Source: Streptomyces sp. NRRL S-455 | Lineage (GTDB): Bacteria > Actinomycetota > Actinomycetes > Streptomycetales > Streptomycetaceae | Assembly (NCBI RefSeq): GCF_000717875.1 | Contig: NZ_JOCT01000004.1 | Coordinates: forward strand, 372,001-436,000 | Reading direction: 5' to 3' | Length of the DNA: 64,000 nt | Shown here: one piece after another, positions 43,732-52,110 of the stretch | Layout: each line of letters starts with the position of its first letter | Position numbering within the stretch: the stretch's first letter is position 1 | The notes under the pieces: model-generated | The model's database searches: none | The model's input: the letters and a program-made list of their open reading frames with translations, nothing else | What the model was told of the DNA's origin: nothing | Program-made: the position numbers and the translations under genes

Positions 43732-44060
43732 GTCCGTGTCTCCCCCGGGTGGTTGCTGTCATGTACTGCCGAGCGGCCAGCCTAGAGACCGGTGTGAGAA
43801 CGCGCGCACCGCCCCCCGTCGATGAACGATCCCATGCCGTCTTTTTGTGCTCTTTGGTGGGGCATGCGCCCTTGGCGCCGGGGCCTGGCGGGCGTACCCG
43901 CCGGCCGGTGGGCGCCGGTGGAGTCGTCGCAGGACAGCGCGGCCGCACCATGGCGAGTGGAAGTGCTTTCCCGGTCGGCGAAGGCCTTCACCTTCCGGGC
44001 CACCCGAAAAATGTTTGTTGAATCGTGAACGCGCGGCGAGCGCTTTCCGTAAGGGACGGC
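43732..44060. other. 330-bp divergent intergenic region before the pab operon
   Basis: No gene is supported here. The left end holds the promoter of the lipoprotein gene. The right end is AT-richer (about 44000-44030), as expected for promoter DNA of the rightward operon. A GTG at 44025 is in frame with the ABM-domain gene but has no ribosome site. No strong inverted repeat was seen. Confidence 0.5.
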
Positions 44061-44639
44061 GTGGCCAGTAATCCCGTCACGGTCACCGTGGCCTATCGCG
44101 TGACACCGGGCCGCGCGGCCGACTTCCATTCCTGGGGGTGGGCCATGCTGGGCGCGACCGCGCGTCAACCGGGGTTTCTGGGGGGTGGGGTGCTTGTCGA
44201 CGGAGGGGCGGAGTGGCATGTCGTCTATCGCTTCTCCAGCGAGGGTTCGGCCCTGGCTTGGGAGAAATCGCATTTCCGGGCACAGTGGGACGCCCGGCTG
44301 GAGGGGATCGCCCGGGAAGCGGAACGCAGGAGGGTGCCGGGCGCCCGGGCCTGGTTCGACGCGCAGACGCTGACACCGGCGCCGCCGGCTCCGCCGTCGA
44401 AATGGAAATTGTGGTTCGTGAATATGAGCGCGGTCTTTCCGCCGGTGCTCCTGTTCAATCTGACGGTGCTTCCCTATCTGGGTGACCTCAATGCACTGAT
44501 TCGGACGCTGTTGTTGTGTCTGTGCGTGACGGCCCTTGTGACCTGGATTCTCATGCCTCGGCTCCAGCGTTTCTTCAGGAAATGGCTGTATCCGCCACTC
44601 CAGGCACTCCGCGGTCGGCACAAACGCCGGGCCACATAG
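44061..44639 (+). CDS. ABM-domain protein with C-terminal membrane helices
   Basis: The 192-residue protein starts with an antibiotic-biosynthesis-monooxygenase (dimeric alpha/beta barrel) domain (VTVTVAYRVTPGRAADFHSW ... WHVVYRFSSEGSALAWEKS) and ends with two membrane helices (about 113-135 and 142-162) and a basic tail. ABM domains oxidise or bind small aromatic molecules; in this membrane-bound subgroup the activity is not established. GTG 44061 has AAGGGA upstream. It precedes pabAB by 30 bp, so it probably opens that operon. GC at third positions is lower than in its neighbours. Confidence 0.72.
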   Translation: MASNPVTVTVAYRVTPGRAADFHSWGWAMLGATARQPGFLGGGVLVDGGAEWHVVYRFSSEGSALAWEKSHFRAQWDARLEGIAREAERRRVPGARAWFDAQTLTPAPPAPPSKWKLWFVNMSAVFPPVLLFNLTVLPYLGDLNALIRTLLLCLCVTALVTWILMPRLQRFFRKWLYPPLQALRGRHKRRAT

Positions 44640-44669
44640 GCCCGCGAACGAACAGAGGGAGGTGGGCGG

Positions 44670-47291
44670 GTGAAGACCCTGCTCATCGACAATTACGACT
44701 CGTACACGTACAACCTCTTCCAGTTGCTCGCCGAGGTGAACGGCGAGGAGCCCGTGGTGGTACGCAACGACGCCCCCGCCGACGAGCTGCCGGACCTCCG
44801 GGCGTTCGACAACCTCGTGGTGTCCCCCGGCCCCGGTCATCCGGGCGACGCGCGTGATTTCGGCATCGGGGCCAGGCTGCTCGCGACCTCCACGGTGCCC
44901 GTGCTCGGCGTGTGTCTGGGCCATCAGGGCATCGCGCTCGGGGAACGCGGGCTGGTGGAGCCCGCTCCGGAGCCGCGCCACGGGCATCTGTCGACGATCC
45001 GGCACGACGAACGGGACCTGTTCCGGGGCCTGCCGCAGAACTTCACCGCCGTCCGCTACCACTCGCTGTCCGTGCGCGAGCCGCTGCCGGAGACACTGCA
45101 GGCCACGGCCTGGGCGGAGGACGGTGTCCTGATGGGCCTGCGGCACCGCAGCCGGCCGCTGTGGGGGGTGCAGTTCCATCCGGAGTCCGTTCTCACGGAG
45201 TACGGCCACCGCATGCTCGTGAACTTCCGCAACCTGACCGCCGAACGGACCGGCAAGCTCCGTACGAAGAACACGGCGGTGCCGTCGCACCAGGAGGTCC
45301 GGCGCCGGTCCGTCGTCCCGGAATGCGACGCGGGAGTACGGCGGCCGACGGCGGCGCCTCGGGACGCGGTTGTCGCCGGGACCGGGGCGAGCGCCCGGTG
45401 GGCGGCCGGTCGTCGGACTGCGGCCGCCGCAGCCGTCTTCCAGGTCGCCGCCGTCTCCCAGGCCCGGGCCAACCCGCCCGGCGGGGCCGCCGGTTTCCAG
45501 GCCGACAGCACCCCGCCCAACGCGGCGGCCCTCCCTCAGACCACGGCGAACCCACCCGGCGGAGCCACCCTCCCCCGAACCACGGCGAACCCGCCCGGCG
45601 GAGGTGTCACCTCCCGCGCCGGGGCCAACCCGCCCAGCGGGGCCGCCCCTTCCAGTGACGCCACCCCGTCCAGCTCCGCCAGCCCGTCCCGGGAGGCCGT
45701 CGCGGCCGTGGAGGCCGCCGTGTCCGGTGCCGCTTCCACCGGCGCGTCGGCCCCGCCCGCCGCCGCCATCCCCCGGCCCCGCCGACCCGGCCGTACCGGC
45801 TACCGCCTGCACACCCGCCGGATCGCGGGTGCCGTCGACACCGAGGCGGTCTTCACCCGGATGTTCGCAGGGTCGCCGCGCGCGTTCTGGCTGGACAGTT
45901 CGCTGGTCGAACCGGGGCGGTCGAGGTTCTCGTTCCTGGGGGACGACAGCGGGCCGCTGGCCGAGTTCGTGCGGTACGACGTCTCCACCGGGCGCTGTGC
46001 GATCGAGCGGGCGGGGCGGCCGGTGCGCCGGGTCGCGGCGAGTGTCTTCGACTACCTCAAGCGGCAGCTGACGACCCGCCGGGTCGATGCCACGGGGTTG
46101 CCGTTCGACTTCGCCGGGGGTTACGTCGGCTACTTCGGCTACGAGGTGAAGGCCGACTGCGGGTCGCCGAACCGCCACCGCTCCCCGGTTCCGGACGCCG
46201 CCTGGCTGTTCGCCGACCGGGTGATCGCGGTGGACCACCAGGAGGGCTTCACCTACGCCGTCTGCCTGGCGGAGGACACCCCGCAGGCCGCCCGGGAGGC
46301 CGCCGACTGGCTGGAGGGCGCGCTCGCCGACCTCACCTGTGTGGCGCCGGAGCGGCCCGCCCCGCCCGTGCCGTCGGCCGTCGCGGATCCCGGCGCCGCC
46401 GAGCCCTGGCTGGTGCGCGACCGGGCCCGGTACCTCGCGGACATCGAGGCGTGCCGGCGGGAGTTGCGCGCCGGCACCAGCTACGAGATCTGCCTGACGA
46501 ACGCCGCCCGGTTACCCGCACCGCCCGACGCGTTCGAGTACTACCGGACGCTGCGCCGCGACAACCCGGCCCCGTACGCGGCGTTCCTGAGGTTCGGGGA
46601 GCTGGAGGTGGCCGGTTCCTCGCCCGAGCGGTTCCTGCGGATCGGCCGGGACGGTACCGCCGAGGCCAGGCCCATCAAGGGCACCGCGCCACGGGGCGAC
46701 GGGCCGGAGGAGGACGCCCGGCTGCGGGACGCGCTCGCGTCGGACGCGAAGACCCGGGCCGAGAACCTGATGATCGTCGACCTGCTCCGCAACGACCTGG
46801 GACAGGTGTGCCGGACGGGGACGGTGCGGGTCTCCAAGCTCATGGCCACGGAGACGTACGCCACGGTGCACCAGCTCGTCTCGGCCGTGGAGGGACGGCT
46901 GCGTGCGGACACGGACGCGGTGGACTGTGTGCGGGCCTGCTTCCCCGGCGGGTCGATGACCGGTGCGCCGAAGCTGCGCACACTGGAGATCATCGACTCG
47001 CTGGAGACCGAGGCACGTGGCGTCTACTCGGGCGCGCTCGGCTACTTCGGGTGCGGTGGCGGCGCGGATCTCAGCATCGTCATCCGCACCGCCGTGTTCG
47101 CCGACGGATCGATGCACCTGGGCGCGGGCGGCGCGATCGTCCTCGGCTCCGACCCGGACGCGGAGTACGAGGAGATGCTGCTGAAGACCGCGGCCCCGAT
47201 GCGGGCCCTGCACCAGCACACGGCCGACCGGATCCGGCGGCAGGATCCGCCGGGGCACCGGGCCGGGGCGGCCGAGGAGGCCCGGCGATGA
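44670..47291 (+). CDS. pabAB: aminodeoxychorismate synthase, PabA-PabB fusion with long linker
   Basis: The 873-residue protein has an N-terminal glutamine amidotransferase (residues 1-193) with triad Cys82 (GVCLGHQG), His170 and Glu172. A linker of about 180 residues follows, full of Ala/Pro/Gly/Ser and ANPPGGA-like units (about 266-335), then a chorismate-binding domain (from about 375). PIKGT with Lys670 marks aminodeoxychorismate rather than anthranilate synthase, which has PIAGT. It makes 4-amino-4-deoxychorismate for p-aminobenzoate. Fused enzymes of this type are usually found in antibiotic clusters and have much shorter linkers. No PabC lyase is nearby. ATGA overlap couples it to the next gene. 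Confidence 0.9.
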   Translation: MKTLLIDNYDSYTYNLFQLLAEVNGEEPVVVRNDAPADELPDLRAFDNLVVSPGPGHPGDARDFGIGARLLATSTVPVLGVCLGHQGIALGERGLVEPAPEPRHGHLSTIRHDERDLFRGLPQNFTAVRYHSLSVREPLPETLQATAWAEDGVLMGLRHRSRPLWGVQFHPESVLTEYGHRMLVNFRNLTAERTGKLRTKNTAVPSHQEVRRRSVVPECDAGVRRPTAAPRDAVVAGTGASARWAAGRRTAAAAAVFQVAAVSQARANPPGGAAGFQADSTPPNAAALPQTTANPPGGATLPRTTANPPGGGVTSRAGANPPSGAAPSSDATPSSSASPSREAVAAVEAAVSGAASTGASAPPAAAIPRPRRPGRTGYRLHTRRIAGAVDTEAVFTRMFAGSPRAFWLDSSLVEPGRSRFSFLGDDSGPLAEFVRYDVSTGRCAIERAGRPVRRVAASVFDYLKRQLTTRRVDATGLPFDFAGGYVGYFGYEVKADCGSPNRHRSPVPDAAWLFADRVIAVDHQEGFTYAVCLAEDTPQAAREAADWLEGALADLTCVAPERPAPPVPSAVADPGAAEPWLVRDRARYLADIEACRRELRAGTSYEICLTNAARLPAPPDAFEYYRTLRRDNPAPYAAFLRFGELEVAGSSPERFLRIGRDGTAEARPIKGTAPRGDGPEEDARLRDALASDAKTRAENLMIVDLLRNDLGQVCRTGTVRVSKLMATETYATVHQLVSAVEGRLRADTDAVDCVRACFPGGSMTGAPKLRTLEIIDSLETEARGVYSGALGYFGCGGGADLSIVIRTAVFADGSMHLGAGGAIVLGSDPDAEYEEMLLKTAAPMRALHQHTADRIRRQDPPGHRAGAAEEARR

Positions 47292-48811
47292 CCAGTCCGC
47301 AGGTCGCGCCGCGTCCGGCCGAGGCCCAGGCGCCCGGGAATCTCGCGGCCCAGCTGGAGGGTCAGGCCGGGCGGCGCGGGTGGGCCGGGCGGACCGCCTT
47401 CCACCAGGGCCACCGGGCCTGGACCCACGGCGAGGTGCACGACCTCGCGGCCCGCGCGGCCACCGTGCTCGCCGGGCACGGGGTACGCCCCGGCGACCGC
47501 GTGCTGCTGGCGCTGCCCGACTCCGTCGCCTGGGTGACGGCCTTCCTCGCCACCGCCCGGCTCGGCGCCGTCGCGGTCCTGGTCAATCCCGAACTCCCCG
47601 CGGCCGACCACGCGTTCCTGGCCGAGGACACCGCGGCGGTGCTGTGTGTGACCGGGCCCGGCCTGGAGGAACGTTTCACCGGTCGGGTGGGGATCGGCGC
47701 CGACCAGCTGATGGCGCTCGCCCCGGCGGCCGAGCCCGCGCCCGCCCACCAGGTCGACGCGCACACCCCGCTCTACGTCCAGTACACCTCCGGCACCACC
47801 GGCCGCCCCAAGGGCGTCGTGCACACACACGGCGATCCGCGGACGTACCACGACCTGGTCGGGCGGCGGGTTCTGCGGATCACCGGGGACGACGTCACCC
47901 TGTCGGTGTCGAAGCTGTTCTTCGCCTACGGCTTCGGCAACGCCTTCGTCTTCCCGCTGTTCTCCGGCTCGTCCGCCGTCCTGGTGGACCGGCGTCCCAG
48001 CCCCGCCGTCATCGACGAACTCGTCGCCCGGCACCGGGTGACGCTGCTCTACTCCGTGCCGTCCGCGTACGCCGCGCTGGTGGCCGAGCGGGGTCACGGG
48101 CACGAGGGCTGCTTCGCCTCGGTGCGGGCCGCCGTGTCGGCCGGTGAGGGCCTGCCGGAAGGGCTCGCGCGGCAGGTGGGCGCGTTGCTCGGGGCGCCCG
48201 TGCTGGAGCAGATCGGCTCCACCGAGGCCGGTCACGCCTTCTGCGCGAACAGCTTCGCCCACAACCACCCGGGCACCGTCGGCCGCCCCGTCCCCGGCTT
48301 CGAGGTGGAGTTGCGGGACCGGGACGGGCGGCCGGTGCCGGACGGCGCGGAGGGCGAGATGTGGGTGCGCGGCCCGACGGTGACGCCCGGCTACCTGAAC
48401 CGGCCCGAGGAGAGCGCCCGCACCCTGGTGGGCGGCTGGCTGGCCACCCGCGACCGGGCGTGCCGCGAGACGGACGGCACCTACCGGCATCTGGGCCGGG
48501 CCGACGACATGGAGATGGTCGGCGGCATCACCGTTTCCCCGCTGGAGGTGGAGGCCGTGCTGTGCGGCCATCCGGCGGTGCGGGAGGTGGCGGTCGCCGC
48601 AGTGCCCGACGGGCGGGGCGCGAGCCGGCTGCGGGCCTTCGTCGTTCCGGGCGTCCCGGTGCGGGACGGCCTGGCGGACGAGCTCCTCGGCCTGGCGCGC
48701 GAGGGCCTCGCCGCGTTCAAGGTCCCCCGCAGCGTCAGCTTCGTCCCCTCGCTGCCGCGCACCGCCACCGGGAAGCTCCGCCGCCATCTGCTCCGCCGGG
48801 GCGCCTGGTGA
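47288..48811 (+). CDS. benzoate-CoA ligase family enzyme (candidate 4-aminobenzoate-CoA ligase)
   Basis: The 507-residue adenylate-forming enzyme has P-loop YTSGTTGRPKGVVH, the benzoate-CoA-ligase signature SKLFFAYGFGNAFVFPL, QIGSTEAGHAF, and a C-terminal PRTATGKLRR with the catalytic Lys. It should activate an aromatic acid as acyl-AMP and acyl-CoA; following pabAB by a 4-bp overlap, p-aminobenzoate or a derivative is the likeliest substrate. The same activity loads PABA in aromatic polyene pathways, but no polyketide synthase is in the window. It overlaps or abuts the next ligase. Confidence 0.85.
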   Translation: MTSPQVAPRPAEAQAPGNLAAQLEGQAGRRGWAGRTAFHQGHRAWTHGEVHDLAARAATVLAGHGVRPGDRVLLALPDSVAWVTAFLATARLGAVAVLVNPELPAADHAFLAEDTAAVLCVTGPGLEERFTGRVGIGADQLMALAPAAEPAPAHQVDAHTPLYVQYTSGTTGRPKGVVHTHGDPRTYHDLVGRRVLRITGDDVTLSVSKLFFAYGFGNAFVFPLFSGSSAVLVDRRPSPAVIDELVARHRVTLLYSVPSAYAALVAERGHGHEGCFASVRAAVSAGEGLPEGLARQVGALLGAPVLEQIGSTEAGHAFCANSFAHNHPGTVGRPVPGFEVELRDRDGRPVPDGAEGEMWVRGPTVTPGYLNRPEESARTLVGGWLATRDRACRETDGTYRHLGRADDMEMVGGITVSPLEVEAVLCGHPAVREVAVAAVPDGRGASRLRAFVVPGVPVRDGLADELLGLAREGLAAFKVPRSVSFVPSLPRTATGKLRRHLLRRGAW

Positions 48812-48834
48812 ACACCACGGAAAGGAACGGCCAC

Positions 48835-50412
48835 ATGCGACAGTCGCAGCCCCTGCTCGCCGACCGCGGCTTCTACCTGGGACCCGTCTTCCGGAGGGCT
48901 GCCGACCGGCACGGCGCCGTCTTCGTCACCCTGGACCGGCCGCTGGACGTCGCCCCCGCTCTCGGCGTCGACCTGAGCTACACCGTGCTGGCCGACCTGG
49001 TCGACGACCTGTCCGGCCGGTTGTGGGAGGCCGGGGTGCGGCCCTCGGAGCAGGTCGTCGTGCACAAGGCGGACAACGTCGACATCATGCTGCTGACCTG
49101 TGCCCTCTCCCGGATCGGCGCCGTGCCGGTGCTGCTGTCGCCGACGCTGGCCCCGGACGTGGCCGGGCAGCTCCTGAGACGGCTGCGCAGACCGTGGCTG
49201 GTCACCGACCGCGCCACACTGGAGGGACTGCGCGAGGTCGCCCTGTCCGGGCTGGTGCGCCGGACGCTGTCCGTGGACGACACGCCCCGTGCGGAGCCCC
49301 TTTCGAAGTACGCGGGCGCCGAACCGCCCCCGCCCGTGCGGCTCCACCCCCGCGAACCCGCGCTGATCACCCACAGCTCGGGCACCACCGGCGTGCCCAA
49401 GCTGGCCGTGCACTGCCCGCGCACCATGTGGAACCGGCTCGTGCCGCAGCAGGCGATGGGCTGGCCCACCCGGGGTGAGCCCGCGGCACTGCACATGTCG
49501 TTCGTGCACTCGCGCTTTTACCATCTGCTGGGCGTCCTGCTGCACTTCGGCAGCCCCCTCGTGCTGATCACCGACCCGGACCCGGCCGCCGTGGGCCCAC
49601 TGCTGGTCCGGCACCGGCCCGGCATCGTGGAGACGCACCCCAACACGTTCGTGCTGTGGGAGGAGCTGGCCGACGCGCCCGGGGCCCCGCTCTCCCGGGT
49701 CCGGTCCTACGGCTCCACGTTCGACGCGATCCATCCGCGCACCGTACGGCGCCTGCTGGACGCGTCGCGGCGCCGCACGCCCTGGCTGCTCCAGCTGTAC
49801 GGGCAGAGCGAGACCGGCCCGGTGGCGTTCCAGGTGGTGACCCGGAGCAGCGCCTCCCGGGCGGACGGCCGCCGGGTCGGGTTCGGGATACCCGGCTTCA
49901 CCCGGGTCCGGGTCACCGACGCCGAGGGCCGACGGGTTCCGCCCGGCACCCCGGGCCGGATCGAGGCCCGCACCCGGGGCCGGATCCTCACCTACCTCGG
50001 CATGCCGGAGCGCTACGAGCGTCAGCTCACCGACGGCTGGTGGGAGATGGGCGACCTGGGCTACCGGAGCCGCCTGGGCGCCCTGTACCTGATCGACCGG
50101 GAGATCGACCGGATCGACGCGGTGCACAGCAACCTGGAGGTCGAGGACGCGTTGATGTCCCGTCTCGAGGAGCTGCGGGAGGTCGTCATCGTGCCGGGCG
50201 CGGACCGCGAGCCGGTGCCGGTGGTGTGCGTGCGCGGCGAGCGGCCCCTGGACCCGGAGCGCTGGCGGAGGGCCACGGCCGGGCTGCCGGCGATGGCCGA
50301 GCCGCGGCAGTGGCGCTTCGAGGACCTGCCGATGACCGCGACCTGGAAGGTGAAGCGGGTGGAGATCGCCCGGATGCTCACCGAGAGCGACAGGGCGGGT
50401 GTGCGGGCATGA
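48835..50412 (+). CDS. second class I adenylate-forming enzyme (acyl-CoA ligase-like)
   Basis: The 525-residue protein has THSSGTTGVPKLAVH, YGQSETGPVAFQ, GDLGYRS and a C-terminal TATWKVKR with the expected Lys, so it should be catalytically competent. Its middle (SFVHSRFYHLLGVLLHFGSP) differs from the benzoate ligase before it, so it recognises another acid. ATG 48835 with GGAAAGGAA upstream is chosen; a GTG at 48808 overlaps the previous stop as GTGA. It may activate the partner acid, or the p-aminobenzoate while the first enzyme uses something else; substrate is unknown. Confidence 0.82.
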   Translation: MRQSQPLLADRGFYLGPVFRRAADRHGAVFVTLDRPLDVAPALGVDLSYTVLADLVDDLSGRLWEAGVRPSEQVVVHKADNVDIMLLTCALSRIGAVPVLLSPTLAPDVAGQLLRRLRRPWLVTDRATLEGLREVALSGLVRRTLSVDDTPRAEPLSKYAGAEPPPPVRLHPREPALITHSSGTTGVPKLAVHCPRTMWNRLVPQQAMGWPTRGEPAALHMSFVHSRFYHLLGVLLHFGSPLVLITDPDPAAVGPLLVRHRPGIVETHPNTFVLWEELADAPGAPLSRVRSYGSTFDAIHPRTVRRLLDASRRRTPWLLQLYGQSETGPVAFQVVTRSSASRADGRRVGFGIPGFTRVRVTDAEGRRVPPGTPGRIEARTRGRILTYLGMPERYERQLTDGWWEMGDLGYRSRLGALYLIDREIDRIDAVHSNLEVEDALMSRLEELREVVIVPGADREPVPVVCVRGERPLDPERWRRATAGLPAMAEPRQWRFEDLPMTATWKVKRVEIARMLTESDRAGVRA

Positions 50413-51587
50413 CCCCGGTCCTGGTCGTGGGCGCCGGACCGGTGGGCCTGTCGGCGGCCCTCGCGCTGCGGGCGCACGCGCTGCCGGTGGTACTGCTGGA
50501 GGCCGACCCCGACGACCGGGAACGGCCCGGCAGCCGGGCCCTGTTCGTGCACCGCGAGACCCTCGGCCTGCTCGACGCCATGCGGCCCGGGCTGGCCGCC
50601 GAGATCACCTCGTACGGACGGACCTGGCACACCAGGCGCACCCTCTACCGGGGTCGTGAGGTGTACGCCCGCACCTTCCCCCCGCCGTCCGGTCCACCGC
50701 CCTTCACCAGCCTGCGCCAGACGGACACCGAGCGGTTCCTGCGCGCGGCCTGCGATCGGGCCGGGGTGGAGTTCGTGTGGGGTTCGCGCGTGACGGGCGT
50801 ACGCGCCACCGAGACGGAAGTCCGGCTGACGAGTGAGGACGGGCGGGTGTGGACGGGAGCGTTCGTGGTCGCCGCCGACGGGGCCCGCTCGGCGGTCCGG
50901 CGGGAGCTGGGCATCGCCATGGAGGGCACGCACGGCGAGGGTTTCCACGTCGTCGTGGACGTGGCCGACCTGCCGGGCGCCGAACTGCCGCTGGAACGGG
51001 TGTTCCATTACGAGCATCCCGGGGTCGGCGGGCGCAGTGTGATGCGGGTGCCGTTCACCGGGGGCTTCCAGGTGGACCTCCAGTGCCGGGACGACGACCG
51101 GCAGGAGGAGTACGGCACCGAGGAAGCCGTGCGCCGCTGGCTGCCCGCGGTCGTCGGGGACGGCTACGGCGAGCGGATCCTGTGGGTGTCGACATACCGC
51201 TTCCTGCGCAAGGTGGCGGCCTCGTTCACCGATCCGCACCGGCGGGTGCTGCTGGCGGGCGAGGCGGCGCATCTCTTCCCACCGTTCGGGGCGCGCGGGA
51301 TGAACAGCGGGATCGCGGACGCGGCGGCCGCCGCCGAGGCGATCGCCGCGGGAACCGGCGAGGCGGTCGACGGGTTCGCCTCGGTGCGGCGCGCGGCGGC
51401 CCTGTTCAACAGCGCCGCCGCCGGAGCCGCCCTGGACCATCTGCGGCCGCATCGCCGGATCGTGAAGGCCAGGCAGCGTGCGGCGGCGGCCCTGGCACCG
51501 GTGCTGCCGTGGTGCGGATCGTGGCTGGAGCACGCGCCGTACGGCCCCCGGCACGGGGCACCGGCCGTCGCGGGGCGCACATACTGA
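50409..51587 (+). CDS. FAD-dependent aromatic monooxygenase (PHBH-like)
   Basis: The 392-residue flavoprotein has GAGPVGLSAALAL at the start, the DG motif AADGARSAVRREL near residue 155, and the second FAD motif as LLAGEAAHLFPPFGARGMN with Glu in place of the usual Asp. Class A flavin hydroxylases add oxygen to activated aromatics such as 4-hydroxy- or 4-aminobenzoate, matching the genes before it. An ATGA overlap links it to the ligase. It is the last gene of the operon, followed by a T-rich terminator. The exact product cannot be deduced. Confidence 0.85.
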   Translation: MTPVLVVGAGPVGLSAALALRAHALPVVLLEADPDDRERPGSRALFVHRETLGLLDAMRPGLAAEITSYGRTWHTRRTLYRGREVYARTFPPPSGPPPFTSLRQTDTERFLRAACDRAGVEFVWGSRVTGVRATETEVRLTSEDGRVWTGAFVVAADGARSAVRRELGIAMEGTHGEGFHVVVDVADLPGAELPLERVFHYEHPGVGGRSVMRVPFTGGFQVDLQCRDDDRQEEYGTEEAVRRWLPAVVGDGYGERILWVSTYRFLRKVAASFTDPHRRVLLAGEAAHLFPPFGARGMNSGIADAAAAAEAIAAGTGEAVDGFASVRRAAALFNSAAAGAALDHLRPHRRIVKARQRAAAALAPVLPWCGSWLEHAPYGPRHGAPAVAGRTY

Positions 51588-51596
51588 GAAAGGGAA

Positions 51597-51640
51597 GCGC
51601 CGGGCCGAAAGGAATCGACCCGGCGCGCTTTCCGTTTTTC
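51597..51640. terminator. hairpin with T-tract after the pab operon
   Basis: GCGCCGGG (51597-51604) pairs with CCCGGCGC (51619-51626), followed by TTTCCGTTTTTC. This classical intrinsic terminator is unusual for such GC-rich DNA. It lies between the convergent stops of the monooxygenase (51587) and an AhpD-like gene (51643). Confidence 0.75.
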
Positions 51641-51642
51641 TC

Positions 51643-52110
51643 TCAGTTTTTCGGAACCATTCGCGTCGCTATCGCGATCCGGTTGTACGCGTTGATGACG
51701 GTGGCCGCCCAGATCAGTGCCGCGATCTGGTTCTCGTCGAAGACCTCGGCCGCCTCGGCGTAGACCGCGTCGGGGACGTGACCGTCGTGCACGAGGGTCA
51801 CCGCCTCGGTCAACGACAGTGCCGCGCGCTCGCGAGCGGTGAAGAAGGGTGTCTCCCGCCAGGCGTTCAGGGTGTAGATGCGCTGCTCCGTCTCGCCCTG
51901 GGCGCGGGCGTCCCTGGTGTGCGTGTCGAGGCAGAACGCGCAGCCGTTGATCTGCGAGGCGCGGATCCTGACGAGTTCCAGCAGTTCTGGTTCGAGTTTG
52001 GCTTCCTGGGCCGCGGAAACGGCGGAGGCGTGCAGGGAGCCCATTGCGGCGGAGACGTCGGGGGTGATTTTCTTCAACGCGACACGGGATATGGAAGGGC
52101 TTTCGCTCAT
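51643..52110 (-). CDS. carboxymuconolactone decarboxylase/AhpD-like protein
   Basis: The 155-residue protein has the AhpD-type redox motif CAFCLDTH (Cys57, Cys60, His64) in an all-alpha fold, and ends with the family motif NAYNRIAIATRMVP. Members reduce peroxides or alkylhydroperoxidase partners. Single gene, convergent with the monooxygenase and 48 bp downstream of the MocR gene in the same direction. Two further AhpD-like genes lie beyond MocR. Confidence 0.88.
   Translation of the reverse strand: MSESPSISRVALKKITPDVSAAMGSLHASAVSAAQEAKLEPELLELVRIRASQINGCAFCLDTHTRDARAQGETEQRIYTLNAWRETPFFTARERAALSLTEAVTLVHDGHVPDAVYAEAAEVFDENQIAALIWAATVINAYNRIAIATRMVPKN

Follow-up and report, generated by a model that had tools for sequence, protein, structure and literature searches.

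A conserved Streptomyces operon joining p-aminobenzoate supply to a putative nitrite-dependent diazotase

In a 64,000-nucleotide stretch of the Streptomyces sp. NRRL S-455 genome (contig NZ_JOCT01000004.1, positions 372,001 to 436,000; hereafter the window), five forward-strand genes form an operon that, on balance, we read as a compact pathway to a diazo (N–N bonded) metabolite derived from p-aminobenzoate (PABA). They encode an ABM-domain protein, a fused aminodeoxychorismate synthase (PabAB), a benzoate-CoA-ligase-type adenylating enzyme (A1), a second adenylating enzyme (A2) and a flavin monooxygenase (FMO); in relatives, a sixth, pabC-like gene follows. A2 resembles CreM, Tri17 and CmaA6, and sequence comparisons group it with nitrite-using diazotases rather than with ordinary acid ligases, so that it is likely to use nitrite itself.

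A2 and its diazotase-like family

A2 (48835..50412, forward strand), for which we propose the role of a nitrite-dependent arylamine diazotase on the basis of trees, a sequence signature, neighbouring genes and a structural model, carries the Pfam domain AMP-binding alone, without AMP-binding_C, and its best solved relative is Tri17. It has the features of class I adenylate-forming enzymes, with an SGTTG P-loop, Glu326 and the C-terminal Lys505 invariant in a 25-row family alignment, and Glu326 corresponds by motif to Glu352 of CreM, which binds Mg2+ according to the accessible part of PMC11705231. Where ordinary ligases carry an acid-pocket loop, A2 has instead Asp297-x-x-His300 (motif TFDAIHP). 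All 168 A2-side rows and all 14 AvaA6-type rows (10 distinct genes) carry this Asp-x-x-His, which takes the form GDAAH at the same place in Tri17 and CmaA6 and GDAVH in 9xb8; none of the 91 A1 orthologues or of 20 further adenylating enzymes has it. The signature was defined by inspection in the present analysis and is therefore descriptive and not an independent test, which makes its use as a membership mark partly circular.

The trees also place A2 among nitrite-linked enzymes and known diazotase families, and not among acyl-CoA ligases. In an 86-row quick tree, for which the program warned of long branches, the operon A2 proteins formed one clade (support 100) joined at 98 to a 47-row clade, 32 of whose rows come from loci with a nitrite gene, and a split with support 100 set the A2 side apart from nine ordinary ligases; when three members from a second family were included, in a quick tree of 90 rows, the operon clade received 98. 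A more careful 52-row tree, whose rows were chosen in favour of nitrite-linked loci, gave the operon clade 99/98 inside a 39-row clade (99/99), with the AvaA6-type group next out, and separated the diazotase side from two ordinary ligases, its sole outgroup rows, at 100/100. The sequence-only reading of this DNA had proposed a second carboxyl activation leading to a PABA conjugate, which the clade and the Asp-x-x-His signature do not bear out; with a diazotase-like A2, the chemistry to be expected would be nitrite-dependent N–N bond formation on a PABA-derived amine.

The known CreM-type diazotases (CreM, Aha11, Pzm18, Tri17, AvaA6 and CmaA6) share the adenylating fold of A2, which was compared with CreM, Aha11 and Pzm18 by published descriptions rather than by their sequences. 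Their substrates are 3-amino-4-hydroxybenzoate (3,4-AHBA), 3-hydroxyanthranilate and 5-hydroxyanthranilate esters, whereas that of the operon would derive from PABA, and CreD/CreE are missing beside the operon. The cremeomycin and crexazone clusters (cre, crx) combine a small aminohydroxybenzoate core with a CreM-type enzyme, as proposed for the operon, but use 3,4-AHBA synthase and CreD/CreE (PMC11429834, accessible part); the operon instead draws on chorismate via PabAB/PabC, lacks the 3,4-AHBA synthase pair and CreD/CreE of the cremeomycin type, and its conserved genes belong to other families. Like the operon, the penzonemycin cluster (pzm) has an enzyme that aminates chorismate, an arylamine core and a homologue of CreM (Pzm18, reported as 48% identical to CreM), although in the text available to us it has an anthranilate-synthase-type enzyme, an isochorismatase, a dehydrogenase and CreD/CreE in place of PabAB/PabC (PMC9323291), and the tasikamide cluster (aha) is described with CreD/CreE and Aha11 in an excerpt of PMC11705231. 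Among the homologues of A2, two proteins are fusions of an A2-family domain, P0124 (809 aa) with PF25129, named transmembrane-type terpene cyclase, and P0230 (746 aa) with PF01040.

Conservation of the unit and PABA supply

To follow the operon across genomes, we used the best 80 of 94 A2 relatives in named genomes, which are 71-96% identical and nearly all from Streptomyces. In 62 of the 64 loci that cover the whole unit, the genes for ABM, PabAB, A1, A2, FMO and the PabC-like protein stand in this order on one strand, as expected if synteny is kept across relatives; of the two exceptions, L050 is without a matched ABM gene and L083 without pabC. Measured against five relatives, dN/dS is 0.145-0.304 for the set of A1, A2 and FMO (0.157-0.220 for A2, 0.145-0.216 for FMO; PabAB was left out, and the A1 frame of L009 is short), and A2 and FMO are under purifying selection. 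Given the low dN/dS and the preserved gene order, the operon is not a chance assembly. It stands alone as a unit whose sixth gene is pabC-like. With an identity threshold of 64%, A2 occurs in at least 40 of the 295 sampled Streptomyces genomes, the own genome included; the 40 count both G069 and G180, the latter matched over part of A2 only. G069 holds a degenerate copy of the operon (locus L136, 6960-11728), in which A1 and FMO are gone, the A2 P-loop is altered and the GATase Cys of PabAB is replaced.

PabAB (44670..47291, forward strand; 873 aa) combines the Pfam domains GATase, Anth_synt_I_N and Chorismate_bind with a long Ala/Pro-rich linker, scores 334.2 bits against the TIGR00553 cut-off of 328.4, and matches the solved 4-amino-4-deoxychorismate synthase 8hx6 at E 1.4e-206. 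It keeps the GATase Cys in VCLGHQG and Lys670 in PIKGT, which we take to be the catalytic lysine, so that both the domains and the motif agree with the aminodeoxychorismate type and with a dedicated PABA supply in the operon, as had been proposed from the sequence. PabAB is also the largest predicted protein of the window, which therefore holds no modular polyketide synthase (PKS) or nonribosomal peptide synthetase (NRPS), again in line with the sequence-only reading. PABA-primed polyene clusters of the candicidin type likewise have a PabAB fusion and a dedicated PABA supply. The operon differs from them in having no PKS, and we rejected the idea that it is a fragment of a PABA-primed PKS cluster, since it is a stand-alone unit and no large synthase lies in the window.

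The gene content given by the sequence-only reading holds for its five genes but was incomplete, as the pabC-like sixth gene belongs to the unit and was lost in the window strain. In 75 of the 76 relatives whose contig covers the place, an Aminotran_4 gene resembling aminodeoxychorismate (ADC) lyase lies between FMO and the terminator, and ADC-lyase models match it weakly, far below their cut-offs. In the window, a clean gap of ~830 bp (51588 | 51598 aligned to 12754 | 13583 of L009) leaves a scar at 51588..51597. A search run without a positive control found no match to the pabC-like gene elsewhere in the own genome, and an ADC-lyase family model gave a weak match at G000:C18:60336 (91.6 bits, cut-off 253). 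With this gene gone, the window strain either depends on a different ADC lyase or has an impaired pathway.

A1 (47288..48811, forward strand) has the Pfam domains AMP-binding and AMP-binding_C, falls narrowly within the benzoate-CoA ligase family (TIGR02262, 376.0 bits, cut-off 375.25) and matches the benzoate-CoA ligase 2v7b at E 3e-91. FMO (50409..51587, forward strand) is a class A flavin monooxygenase of the p-hydroxybenzoate hydroxylase (PHBH) fold with the Pfam domain FAD_binding_3 and is a proposed ring hydroxylase. The earlier family calls of a ring-acid ligase and a PHBH-fold monooxygenase are thus supported.

A version of the unit also occurs outside the main group, in three genomes of family f17 (G477, G684 and G665), where PabAB, A1, A2 (56-58% identical), FMO and PabC stand together; among 250 f17 genomes, 3 match at E 1e-180. 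Gene families there were assigned by scanning L210 and part of L215 and by BLAST for the rest. Upstream lie a class II 3-deoxy-D-arabino-heptulosonate 7-phosphate (DAHP) synthase, an aldehyde-dehydrogenase-family protein with a LuxC match just below the cut-off, and a small AMP-binding-like protein at 29.8 bits against 29.9. The latter two, the AMP-binding-like protein being 360 aa long, are found upstream of the unit in L210, L215 and L216, a pair that suggests aromatic-acid reduction.

Nitrite supply, proposed pathway and alternatives

We surveyed nitrite genes around A2 relatives, with CreD defined as NF052556 above its cut-off; on this definition it occurs in 79 of the 295 Streptomyces genomes, at 93 places. 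Non-operon members of the A2 family, 37-54% identical to A2, are common in Streptomyces. Among the matches listed, CreD lies within 20 kb of 51 of 109 such places versus 0 of 41 operon places, and the linked share is 42/80 at 43-54% identity and 9/29 at 37-42%. Of 51 fetched non-operon loci, a non-random choice, 29 carry CreD (24), CreE (25) or NasC (8). NF052556 and the NAD_binding_9 domain confirmed CreD and CreE in L134 and L129, and CreE also in L130. Several A2-family loci show the pzm architecture, with DHB dehydrogenase, isochorismatase and a 2-amino-2-deoxyisochorismate (ADIC)-type synthase beside CreD, CreE and A2. Eight CreM-like loci (L128, L131, L135, L162, L165, L166, L168 and L173) have an assimilatory nitrate reductase of the NasC type, together with CreD/CreE in all except L131 and L173, and the nitrite for N–N chemistry in these loci may come from nitrate.

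In the pathway that we propose, chorismate is most probably converted into PABA by PabAB and a PabC-like lyase. FMO would then hydroxylate the ring either beside the amine, giving 4-amino-3-hydroxybenzoate, or at the carboxyl carbon, giving 4-aminophenol, and A1 would turn the carboxyl into a CoA thioester. Judging from its family, A2 would adenylate nitrite and nitrosate the aromatic amine, yielding an aryl diazonium, which a hydroxyl group beside or para to it would stabilise in the form of a quinone diazide. The nitrite would be supplied by nitrate reduction, because no nitrite-synthesis genes are linked to the operon. More tentatively, and with rather less confidence than in the diazo product as such, the operon could represent a widespread Streptomyces route from PABA to quinone-diazide-type compounds, fed with nitrite from nitrate reduction and with an output tied to environmental nitrate.

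Several observations weigh against a diazo pathway. A2 scores far under the cut-off of the AvaA6 equivalog NF058622 (77.9 versus 975 bits) and does not belong to that equivalog. None of 83 operon loci (mean length 19 kb) holds CreD, CreE or NasC, and none of the 41 operon places among the matches listed has CreD within 50 kb; the absence of CreD/CreE from the cluster lowers the case for cluster-type membership, not for enzyme kinship. CreD and the operon also show no association across genomes (14/40 operon genomes versus 65/255 others, Fisher p 0.25), on which ground a dedicated unlinked nitrite source was rejected, and the own genome gave a CreD match only below the cut-off, presumably PcaB. 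For 58 of the 109 A2 relatives among the matches listed, no CreD above the cut-off lies within 20 kb, and seven clusters (L128, L129, L130, L131, L160, L162 and L166) each carry a pair of A2-type adenylating enzymes from different subclades, so that some family members may serve another function. In the second family, genes for NarK, NasC and a NasB-like protein follow the unit on the same strand in L210 (G477) only; the regions retrieved from G684 and G665 lack them. This NasC is the sole match in its genome and NirB lies ~9 kb away, so that the locus may be a housekeeping one for nitrate. It is not a decisive nitrite link, and for the second-family unit a tie to nitrite supply is at best suggestive. 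The loss of pabC in the window strain is a further difficulty, and FMO would not have to be the first to act, since SpiA7 is reported, in the accessible part of PMC11705231, to accept an amine that lacks a stabilising hydroxyl.

An unlikely alternative, put forward in the sequence-only reading, is that A2 adenylates aryl acids or forms amides, with PABA activated twice and released as a small conjugate; yet its clade lies among nitrite-linked enzymes, the ordinary-ligase pocket loop is replaced by the diazotase Asp-x-x-His, and neither an amine partner gene nor a carrier protein is among the six conserved genes. We consider it improbable that diazotisation serves deamination, removing the amino group of PABA to leave a hydroxybenzoyl product as in avenalumate and p-coumarate biosynthesis. 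The ava and cma clusters offer a precedent (PMC10777205, accessible part) and the A2 model resembles CmaA6, but the six conserved genes include no member of a reductase family that could take the part of CmaA7, and it would be costly to build PABA only for its nitrogen to be lost. PABA is indeed the product of PabAB and PabC-like enzymes, and a contribution to folate synthesis or to the general PABA pool, the remaining genes being incidental, was also weighed. It is very hard to reconcile with a ligase, a diazotase-like enzyme and a monooxygenase kept with PabAB and PabC in nearly all covered loci and in the second family, or with a patchy distribution that marks the unit as dispensable, and we rejected it.

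Should A2 be a diazotase, PABA would become a precursor of diazo metabolites by a new route, whose reactive product could easily be missed in ordinary extracts. Diazo genome mining mostly starts from CreD and CreE (PMC11429834, accessible part), and a creD/creE/creM search is cited and AzpL homologues also served as bait in the part of PMC13061610 consulted. Being without CreD/CreE, the unit would be overlooked by CreD/CreE-based searches and, if the proposal is true, would form a PABA branch of diazo biosynthesis; with only five to six genes, the complete pathway would then be easy to reconstitute. We found no description of the operon in the literature searched, which is weak evidence of absence as subscription papers lay mostly outside the search.

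Gene boundaries, promoter and neighbours

Gene prediction in the window and Pfam confirmed the five genes of the sequence-only reading, with their coordinates (44061-51587) and families. The ABM-domain membrane protein (44061..44639, forward strand; 192 aa) has a hydrophobic C-terminal half, judged by eye, and a Pfam ABM score of 24.8 bits, barely above the cut-off of 23.1; it lies, as had been noted, 30 bp upstream of PabAB. In 65 of the 80 relatives a tblastn match covers more than half its length, and contig ends truncate it in some of the remainder. The ATGA overlaps hold for PabAB/A1 and A2/FMO, whereas the GTGA overlap claimed for A1/A2 requires a doubtful GTG start at 48808, the ATG at 48835, after GGAAAGGAA, being the better start.

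Upstream, the conserved promoter-like element TGAAC-N17-CGTA (44026..44051, forward strand) ends 9 nt 5′ of the ABM start codon. Of the 63 upstream regions compared, from 62 relatives and the window, 61 have the pattern TGA[AG]C-N17-CGTA exactly 9 nt before the start, and a stricter form arises at a rate of 0.0008 in letter-shuffled upstream regions. By its sequence, the element looks like a promoter of the extracytoplasmic function (ECF) sigma type that would give a nearly leaderless transcript.

Downstream, the T-tract terminator described earlier is present at 51598..51655 (forward strand) as a GC-rich hairpin (-27.7 kcal/mol) followed by T-runs, modest in that 14 of 200 shuffles fold equally well, and the same sequence lies 3′ of pabC in L009. 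An AhpD/CMD-family gene occupies 51643-52044 of the window; such a gene is near the operon in 75 of the 80 named loci, convergent there, and in L137 (13448-13945) it is co-directional and follows pabC.

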